A DNA stretch of 64,000 bases from the NCBI RefSeq assembly GCF_014235875.1, contig NZ_JACJUK010000001.1:434001-498000 (forward strand). Reading direction: 5' to 3'. A program made the translations under genes and the position numbers. Positions within the stretch are counted from its first letter, which is position 1. Each line of letters begins with the position of its first letter. Source of the DNA: Croceivirga lutea (GTDB lineage Bacteria; Bacteroidota; Bacteroidia; Flavobacteriales; Flavobacteriaceae). This document shows positions 20,794 to 23,079 of this stretch, piece by piece. The notes beneath the pieces are model-generated. The model ran no database searches. It was not told where the DNA came from and worked only from the letters and a program-made list of their open reading frames with translations.

Positions 20794-22128
20794 ATGAAAT
20801 GGATTAAGAGAATTCTACTGCTTTTAGTAGTAATTGTGGGAGTCCTATTATACTTCAACTACCCTAAACTCAATATTATATCTGGTTATGCCTCAAAATA
20901 TATGGCCTCTAGTGTTTTAATTGCTGGTCATCAACCCGGTTATGTAAATCAAACCGATTTGCAAATGCCGCTTATAGAATTGGCCACAACTAGCTATGAT
21001 AAAACCGTGCAACAAGCGTCTGCTGATGTATACGGCTTGCTCGAACGAAAAGCAATAGACAGACAGGGCTTAGGTGCAGTTTTGGTGAGTGATGATTATA
21101 AAGAAGAAAAGAATTTTTTACAACCACAACGCAACCAAAAATTTGATTCTCTTCCCTACCCTTTTGGGCATTTACCGGCTAAAGATTCCATTTTTCCCGA
21201 AATAGACCAAGCAGCATTTAACAGAGCTGTTGCTTTGCCCTTTGCTAATAATGAAATTCAAAAAACAAGAACACTTTTAATACTATATAAAGGCCACCTA
21301 GTTCATGAGAATTATGTAGATGATTTTACCAAAGACACACCGGTTTTAGGTTGGTCTATGACCAAAAGTGTTCTTGCTACTTGTTTTGGAATTCTGCAAC
21401 ATCAAGGAAAAATAGACGTGAACTGGCCGGCTCCAATAACGGAATGGGAAAATGATGACCGCAAAAACATAACTATTAACCATTTACTACGTATGCAGAG
21501 TGGTTTAGCTTGGGAAGAAGATTACAGCGCTATTTCTGACGTTACTAAAATGCTGTTTTTAGATGATGATATGACGTTAGCTCAAAAACAAAAAGAAGCA
21601 ATTGCTAATCCAACAGAAATTTGGAATTATTCTTCGGGGACAACCAATTTATTGTCAGGAATTTTACGCCAACAATTTAGAACACATCAAGAATATTTAG
21701 ATTATCCATACGCTAATCTACTCGACAAAATAGGTGCACACAGTTTTTTAATTGAAGCTGATTATGCAGGTAATTATGTGGGCTCCTCTTATGGTTGGGC
21801 CTCTACTAGAGATTGGGCAAGACTAGGACAATTGTATTTAAATAAAGGTAATTGGAATGGAGAACAGCTATTTGACACCAATTGGGTAGATTATATTACC
21901 ACACCTACAGCAAATAGTAATGGAACTTACGGCGGTCAATTTTGGTTAAATGCCGAAGGGGTATATCCAGATGTTCCAAAAGACTTATATAGCATGAATG
22001 GGTTTCAAGGACAGTTTGTGTTTATAATACCGTCTAAAGACTTGGTGGTTGTTAGAACTGGTCTTGCTGAGAATCCAATTTTTGATGTTAATGCCTTTTT
22101 AAGCGCTTTAGTAGCAGCAATCAATTAG
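20794..22128 (+). CDS. Beta-lactamase-family (class C-like) serine hydrolase
   Basis: The 444-aa product has an N-terminal membrane segment (residues 5-22) that may be an uncleaved anchor. The serine beta-lactamase/transpeptidase-like domain (about 155-440) shows SMTK (Ser188, Lys191) as the SxxK nucleophile motif, NYSSGTTNLLS as the YxS/N element, and a late NGFQGQFVFIIPSKDLVVVRTG strand. Family members are esterases, D-aminopeptidases or penicillin-binding proteins; actual beta-lactam resistance is unlikely to be their role. It is followed by the tandem hairpin array. Confidence 0.85.
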   Translation: MKWIKRILLLLVVIVGVLLYFNYPKLNIISGYASKYMASSVLIAGHQPGYVNQTDLQMPLIELATTSYDKTVQQASADVYGLLERKAIDRQGLGAVLVSDDYKEEKNFLQPQRNQKFDSLPYPFGHLPAKDSIFPEIDQAAFNRAVALPFANNEIQKTRTLLILYKGHLVHENYVDDFTKDTPVLGWSMTKSVLATCFGILQHQGKIDVNWPAPITEWENDDRKNITINHLLRMQSGLAWEEDYSAISDVTKMLFLDDDMTLAQKQKEAIANPTEIWNYSSGTTNLLSGILRQQFRTHQEYLDYPYANLLDKIGAHSFLIEADYAGNYVGSSYGWASTRDWARLGQLYLNKGNWNGEQLFDTNWVDYITTPTANSNGTYGGQFWLNAEGVYPDVPKDLYSMNGFQGQFVFIIPSKDLVVVRTGLAENPIFDVNAFLSALVAAIN

Positions 22129-22267
22129 GAAATAACAATTTGATAGGGCCAAACCACAATCTCTTCTTACTACGCAACAATATTTTTCTTTGCGAGAACA
22201 CCTAATATAGATTTACACTGTAATAATAACGAAAGTAAATTTTTTCATTTTCATATAGTGTTCTCGT

Positions 22268-22302
22268 AAAAGGGCTTTGATCGCAAGACAAGGCTCTTTT
22301 TT
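22268..22302 (+). terminator. Array hairpin 1 (terminator-like)
   Basis: AAAGGGCTTTG pairs with CAAGGCTCTTT over a 9-nt loop with two G-T pairs and is followed by T residues. It is repeated with compensating changes at 22513 and 22759. Confidence 0.6.
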
Positions 22303-22512
22303 GTTTCTACCCATTACGTGTACTTCACTATGCATTTGCAAATAGTTATAAAGATTCTGGTAATAACCTAAATCGTAATTACAGTTTAACAGTGCAAAAC
22401 CACAAGCTACGCTAGCTACACAACAATAATTTCTATTGCAATAACACCCAACCTACATTTACCATGTAATAATAACGAAAGTAAATTTTTCATTTTCATA
22501 TAGTGTTCTCGT

Positions 22513-22547
22513 AAAAGGGCTTTGATCGCAAGACAAAGCTCTTTTTT
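22513..22547 (+). terminator. Array hairpin 2 (terminator-like)
   Basis: AAAGGGCTTTG pairs with CAAAGCTCTTT. The T-G wobble of hairpin 1 is here a T-A pair, and a T run follows. Confidence 0.6.
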
Positions 22548-22758
22548 GTTTCTATTCCTTACGTATACTTCACTACATATTGCCAAATAGTCATAAAGAT
22601 TAAGGCATAAGAAAAAATCATAATTACAATTTAACAGCGCCAAACCACAAGGTCTACTAGCTACACAACAATAATTTCTCTTGCCATAACACCCAACGTA
22701 CATTTACCATGTAATAATTCAGAAAGTAAATTTTTTCATTTTCATATAGTGTTCTCGT

Positions 22759-22791
22759 AAAAGGGCCTTGATCGTAAGACAAGGCTCTTTT
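22759..22791 (+). terminator. Array hairpin 3 (terminator-like)
   Basis: AAAGGGCCTTG pairs with CAAGGCTCTTT. The T-G wobble of hairpin 1 is here a C-G pair. Homology with the other units stops shortly after this hairpin. Confidence 0.6.
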
Positions 22792-23079
22792 CTATTTAGA
22801 ACAGTACTATGGTTAATGACTTAAATGAGAAAATCTTATAATACTTAGTAAGGATTTTCAAGCGCTATAAAATCATTTTGTTGTGGTATGCTTTTCTTTT
22901 TTAAATTGTTTACTTCTTTTACCTTCCTTAATTACACGTTATTTTTTTTACTACTGAATTTCAATTTTGTTGGTACTACCGTGCTATGTCAATATTTTTT
23001 GCTACATGAAATTCTTCTTGTTATTTACAAAAGATGTGACTTTTTCATAGTTTGGTGTCTTATAGATAAAATAAGAACC

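Follow-up and report, generated by a model that had tools for sequence, protein, structure and literature searches.

To our knowledge, few pairs of a small RNA (sRNA) and its target are known in the Bacteroidota; the sRNAs of Bacteroides thetaiotaomicron, such as GibS, are reportedly trans-acting. In type I toxin-antitoxin systems a small hydrophobic peptide is encoded by an mRNA that is complementary to an sRNA. Rfp18 of Flavobacterium psychrophilum is reported to be a trans-acting sRNA that is strongly folded and conserved beyond one species; its predicted mRNA targets include metalloproteases, and it uses the third of its stem-loops for pairing (PMC9723704).

The window (the whole 64-kb stretch of DNA analysed here) contains a tandem array, each repeat of which is probably a complete plus-strand gene for a trans-acting sRNA of ~83 nt that pairs with the mRNA of a DUF6747 protein, likely blocking its translation. 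The gene family, its promoter and terminator anatomy, its covariation, its complementarity to the mRNA, and the co-occurrence of the two genes can be read from the sequences themselves. Compared with Rfp18 by description, both would be trans-acting sRNAs of Flavobacteriaceae that extend beyond one species and have predicted mRNA targets; the array RNA differs in being multicopy, in having DUF6747 as its partner, and in pairing through an open stretch, with a predicted fold of one strong hairpin (the terminator) and one weak hairpin rather than several stem-loops of which the third pairs. It resembles the Bacteroides sRNAs such as GibS as a trans-acting sRNA of the Bacteroidota but differs in that the array matches no Rfam family at gathering score, the Bacteroides sRNA BTnc231 appearing as a sub-threshold match only. 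Across the whole window no Rfam 15 family reaches the gathering cut-off, and the ten matches found at 22000–22900 with E up to 10 all lie below it, in keeping with an earlier remark, made in a first-pass annotation of this DNA, that no known element matches. Judged from sequence, the RNA would be a new family, one without an Rfam match, of a known kind, the trans-acting sRNA. The array RNA was not described in the titles and abstract openings of literature on sRNAs of Flavobacteriaceae, Zobellia and Bacteroides, on base-pairing sRNAs of Bacteroidetes, and on two-site sRNA targets, and no paper on DUF6747 was found.

Tandem Repeats Finder reports one sole array in the window (22131–22791; period 245, 2.7 copies, 85% matches, score 902), which bears out the head-to-tail arrangement of ~245-bp units noticed in the first-pass annotation. 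The copies begin at 22131, 22377 and 22622, with spacings of 246 and 245, and each has, on the plus strand, a promoter box (TAnnTTTR) preceded by operator-like repeats and followed by a predicted start, then a near-invariant box of ~30 nt and a terminator hairpin. From repeat finding and alignment of the units, unit 1 (22131–22376) comprises operator, promoter, RNA, terminator and spacer, and thus a full transcription unit; unit 2 spans 22377–22621, and unit 3 (22622–22797) is without the trailing spacer. When the three units are aligned, conservation is highest between approximately the predicted start and the terminator. A fourth, solitary copy of the sRNA gene is present on the same contig ~170 kb from the array. 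The array looks to us like an old chromosomal gene that has multiplied locally. Plasmid and phage collections contain nothing similar, and a mobile element was rejected on that ground.

The promoter boxes are at 22208–22215, 22454–22461 and 22699–22706, and are supported by upstream conservation. The sequence TANNTTTR lies 28–60 nt before the near-invariant box in 148 of 192 distinct box-bearing copies (exactly 34 nt before it in 69) and is absent from that range in the other 44. According to a transcriptome study, the flavobacterial sigma-A box TAnnTTTG occupies −12 to −5 (PMC9723704), and this position, applied to the first promoter box and its counterparts, makes the G of GTAATAAT the predicted start (22220, 22466 and 22711). 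These are exactly the three positions that had been picked out earlier as markers of the repeat. The predicted RNAs, placed by the promoter-box start, the fold and matches to model R1, correspond to 22220–22302 (83 nt), 22466–22547 (82 nt) and 22711–22792 (82 nt). A scan of 22000–23000 for E. coli-type promoters gave four matches, which is not above shuffles (mean 4.8). Upstream of the promoter are ACMACA and CACAACAATA repeats 21 bp apart (in the form ACMACA-N15-ACAACAATA), with a weaker repeat another 21 bp up. In copy 1 these operator-like direct repeats are ACCACA followed 21 bp on by GCAACAATATTTT (22153–22186), a putative activator site; those of copies 2 (22399–22433) and 3 (22644–22678) are placed by upstream conservation and by a scan with the operator pattern.

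Downstream of the start, alignment places the near-invariant box at 22236–22266, 22482–22511 (with one T fewer) and 22727–22757. Across 36 copies 26 alignment columns, mainly TTTTCATTTTCATATAGTGTTC, are invariant; TTTTCATTTTCATATAGTGTTC was required by the selection script, yet none of the 40 BLAST matches failed this requirement. In a wider scan it is altered in a few copies, for example in genomes G168, G214, G268 and G090. The box is mostly unpaired in the predicted fold, and in copy 1 the 3′ half of it stays open and is complementary to the target sites described below.

The box is followed by the terminator hairpin, supported by covariation and fold, at 22268–22300 (and then a T run), 22513–22545 and 22759–22791. 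The stem pair T-G, T-A and C-G reported for copies 1, 2 and 3 is present as stated, and the covariation, which had been taken as the mark of a functional RNA, extends far beyond three copies: among 105 distinct copies, in an alignment that was fitted to the model and hence biased towards pairing, 98.7% of hairpin cells are paired and 10 of 12 pairs have two-sided changes. None of 500 shuffles reached any of five covariation measures, and slid controls were 38–75% paired. The terminator letters vary freely with the fold kept, and the single-stranded stretch is nearly constant. The three RNAs of 82–83 nt fold with z of −2.92, −2.93 and −3.98 against dinucleotide shuffles. A strict terminator scan of 22000–23000 found none, probably missing the hairpin since its stem is bulged.

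The strand asymmetry bears on an alternative without RNA–RNA pairing, in which a protein would bind an element shared by 3′UTRs and a minus-strand transcript of the repeat. The DUF6747 3′UTR loops described below do share their letters with the minus strand of the repeat. It is the plus strand, though, that has the promoter box and, behind the hairpin, the T run, and copy 1 read on the minus strand gives a weak fold (z −1.69, compared with −2.9 to −4.0). We regard this explanation as quite improbable. A protein-binding array built on the inverted pair GAGAACAC/GTGTTCTC, as proposed from the window by itself, is not supported. The pair is indeed present in copy 1 but is not kept across relatives, GAGAACAC occurring within 100 nt upstream in two of 195 copies.

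All ten same-genus genomes match the 85-nt core with E no higher than 1e-16, and the core has matches in several others in a set of 60 relatives; the overall tally there, 29 of 60, includes matches that are short and weak. Of 40 BLAST matches (E ≤ 1e-7), 36 went into a covariance model, near-duplicates being dropped, and the model was searched against 299 Flavobacteriaceae genomes, as the first-pass annotation had proposed. At E ≤ 0.01, 118 genomes pass. The scores show a gap between 49 genomes with a best E ≤ 5.8e-10 and the next genome at 3.4e-5, and only those 49 were counted as positive, the line being placed in the gap after it was seen. Homologous units are thus present in 49 of 299 genomes, with 140 matches at E ≤ 3e-9, 1–5 per genome (median 3); weaker model matches within these genomes were left out of the count. 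An exact 18-nt piece occurs in at least 120 stretches in named genomes. The 80 matches listed include Maribacter, Zobellia, Cellulophaga, Arenibacter, Allomuricauda/Flagellimonas, Robiginitalea and Eudoraea, all of which we take to be Flavobacteriaceae, and metagenome-assembled genomes labelled Flavobacteriaceae, Bacteroidia or Bacteroidetes. Copies lie near menB in 111 and near a serine hydrolase gene in 105 of 251 mutually overlapping loci, and the window has the same neighbors. The three repeats appear to be complete copies of a gene for a small RNA that occurs in many marine flavobacteria.

Of the three readings first offered for the array, that of a multicopy sRNA family with its own terminators gains from the homologues in many genera, the covarying terminator, the promoter box, and the want of a conserved minus-strand ORF. 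Two of the conditions named at the outset as refuting it do not hold, since related genomes do contain homologous units and the covariation is seen in many more copies than the three. The reading as repeated starts of a decayed minus-strand gene, or more generally as a functionless mobile repeat, draws on the tandem repetition and on the short minus-strand MKMKKFTFVIITV frame in copy 1. This frame is present there but is not kept across relatives, and is 13 aa long in only 44 of 195 places. The near-invariant box and compensatory changes across many genera, the recurrence of copies in one and the same neighborhood (menB, serine hydrolase gene), and the plasmid and phage collections devoid of matches all stand against such an origin, which is scarcely credible and, in our view, refuted by the covariation and box conservation.

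A search for partners showed that the box complement, outside of sRNA genes, recurs 11–24 nt past the stop of a gene whose 55-aa product corresponds to Pfam DUF6747. This protein is hydrophobic with one strong stretch (hydropathy 2.4 in a 19-aa window). A close orthologue (E ≤ 7e-12) is encoded in 48 of the 299 genomes, all 48 within the 49 sRNA-positive genomes, G216 being the only genome with the sRNA and no close orthologue. The co-occurrence is consistent with a functional tie but is not proof of one; both genes are markers of a single clade, so that neither their joint presence nor the sharing of sites counts as an independent event. The probable partner of this sRNA is unusually clear and conserved.

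A small hydrophobic peptide (55 aa, below about 60 aa) with an mRNA that complements an sRNA at the start codon and in the 3′UTR recalls type I toxin-antitoxin pairs, in which case overproduced DUF6747 would be a harmful membrane peptide that the RNA keeps off. The two genes differ from such pairs in being neither overlapping nor adjacent; they are unlinked, on different contigs or ~60 kb or more apart. Several genomes, including that of the window, keep DUF6747 without a 3′UTR site, and many have DUF6747 paralogues, two of three checked being without the site. We therefore consider a toxin-antitoxin-like pair unlikely.

The pairing of the sRNA with DUF6747 mRNA was evaluated with 57 orthologues (from the 48 genomes and nine same-genus genomes) and five controls, namely three paralogues and two relatives taken from sRNA-free genomes. 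A duplex of z < −3 between the opening 50 nt of the RNA from the window and the first 70 nt of the 3′UTR was obtained for 39 of 57 orthologues, 18 falling short, and for none of the controls. With 130 nt of 3′UTR these numbers are 28 of 57 and one of five, and this weaker outcome made us slightly less confident of the main reading, which we still hold to be probable. The one control is the G036 DUF6747 paralogue (L378), in which CACTATATGAAA, a 12-nt box complement, is located ~80 nt past the stop codon (z −4.9 with 130 nt of 3′UTR); the match may be due to chance, or the family may have a second target here.

The exact motif TTTTACNNGAACACTAT is present in 29 of 57 orthologues; this and the other site counts are of sequences that share ancestry and are not independent. 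The 3′UTR site is a hairpin loop (UUUUACnnGAACACUAU) just before the terminator of the DUF6747 gene, although in G083 it is 178 nt after the stop. For 39 of the 57 sequences, namely those with recognisable sites (one duplicate removed, and the 17-nt core held open), loop-spanning pairs average 7.5, whereas swapping the 3′ arms 200 times gives an average of 4.2 and never more than 5.9; 33 of 39 have at least five. The common loop has two central mismatches to the sRNA (CT or TT for GA). The form TTTTACYTGAACACTAT is present in 21 of the 49 sRNA-positive genomes and two of the 250 others (a reversed-pattern control gave none), and is absent from the sRNA genes, which have GA. At the other end of the mRNA, a start-codon match, ACTATA(A)TG (ACUAUAUG), is found in 38 of 57 orthologues, compared with four of 1419 other ORF starts in the loci analysed, taking the first ATG as the start. 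Exact start-codon matches of 13 nt are present in G159 and G168, the latter being without the 3′UTR site.

These observations suggest the following mechanism. The ~83-nt RNA would be made from the plus strand and ended by its intrinsic terminator, and its nearly letter-for-letter constant single-stranded stretch (AUAUAGUGUUCUCGU and flanks) would pair with mRNA. The conserved partner within the clade would be DUF6747 mRNA, at two sites, one across the start codon and the other in the 3′UTR loop. Pairing over the start codon would most likely block ribosomes and turn off DUF6747 translation, the 3′UTR loop serving as a ready first contact or as a second pairing site. Transcription of the repeats, pairing in the cell and repression are thus what we infer. 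With a conserved seed, a conserved partner, two sites, and natural losses and variants, the pairing is directly testable, and it opens a search for a first function of DUF6747.

In the window's own genome (G000), DUF6747 has neither site and four sRNA copies are kept. The sites have been lost there, and the RNA must then act on other mRNAs. Such cases bear on the main rival explanation, in which the DUF6747 3′UTR hairpin is a sponge, the 3′UTR, whole or in part, titrating the multicopy RNA, and the true targets are other mRNAs. Presentation of the site in a loop right before the terminator suits a sponge, as does the persistence of two to four RNA copies in genomes whose DUF6747 gene is without the 3′UTR site (G000, G028, G113, G235, G183, G168, G090 and G321), and exact sites are located 15 nt (G216), 23 nt (G010) and 26 nt (G036) ahead of other start codons. 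However, the DUF6747 start codons are also matched, which is needless for a pure sponge, and the other sites are without demonstrated conservation between genomes. We consider a sponge possible, with distinctly less than an even chance, and prefer repression of DUF6747.

Exact 14-nt sites outside sRNA genes number eight in 15 genomes: four in DUF6747 3′UTRs, two at lptC, and two that precede a start codon by 23 and 26 nt. Sites with one mismatch to CGAGAACACTATAT in the same number of genomes total 15 outside sRNA genes, compared with 12 matches to the reversed pattern; most are in coding sequence and one is in a DUF6747 3′UTR. In G000 one site is in the 3′UTR of a gene that we take to encode an L31-like ribosomal protein, and in G010 one follows a presumably ferredoxin-like gene, each being a single occurrence. 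As a conserved target lptC was rejected, the start site being present in just two of 30 genomes (G000 and G003). The lptC start and the 3′UTR of the L31-like gene are weak target candidates in the window's genome.

The operator pattern has 44 matches in 16 genomes, 17 of them away from sRNA genes, and the reversed pattern has three. Six of the 17 are followed by genes that resemble one another and encode secreted proteins of more than 600 aa (L411 in the window's genome, and L412, L413, L414, L420 and L422), with open frames that extend past the end of the analysed stretch; L411, the one tested, has Ig-like domains. Another of the 17 is inside a long frame (L419). We infer control by an activator at the upstream repeats, one that would be shared by the sRNA genes and the secreted-protein genes. 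No operator was found within 150 nt upstream of DUF6747 in any of the 57 orthologues at up to two mismatches. A broader and more tentative proposal is that a multicopy sRNA, induced along with large secreted surface proteins through shared operators of 21-bp spacing, holds one small mRNA by its start codon and by the loop presented in its 3′UTR, thereby clamping both ends, as a deeply conserved RNA module of marine Flavobacteriaceae.

Three further features were noted. A 5′UTR block near GATTTAACCCTTATAGCTTTGATT, ~50 nt before the DUF6747 start, appears by eye to be conserved over many genera (e.g. L331, L332 and L348). In G216, an exact 14-nt box complement lies 15 nt before the start of L281, a gene that in our judgement resembles yajC. 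In most of the 30 lptC starts compared (L429–L458), the start codon is directly followed, by eye, by a strong hairpin of varying letters and then by T residues, and the lipoprotein signal peptide is thereby encoded in what looks like a terminator.
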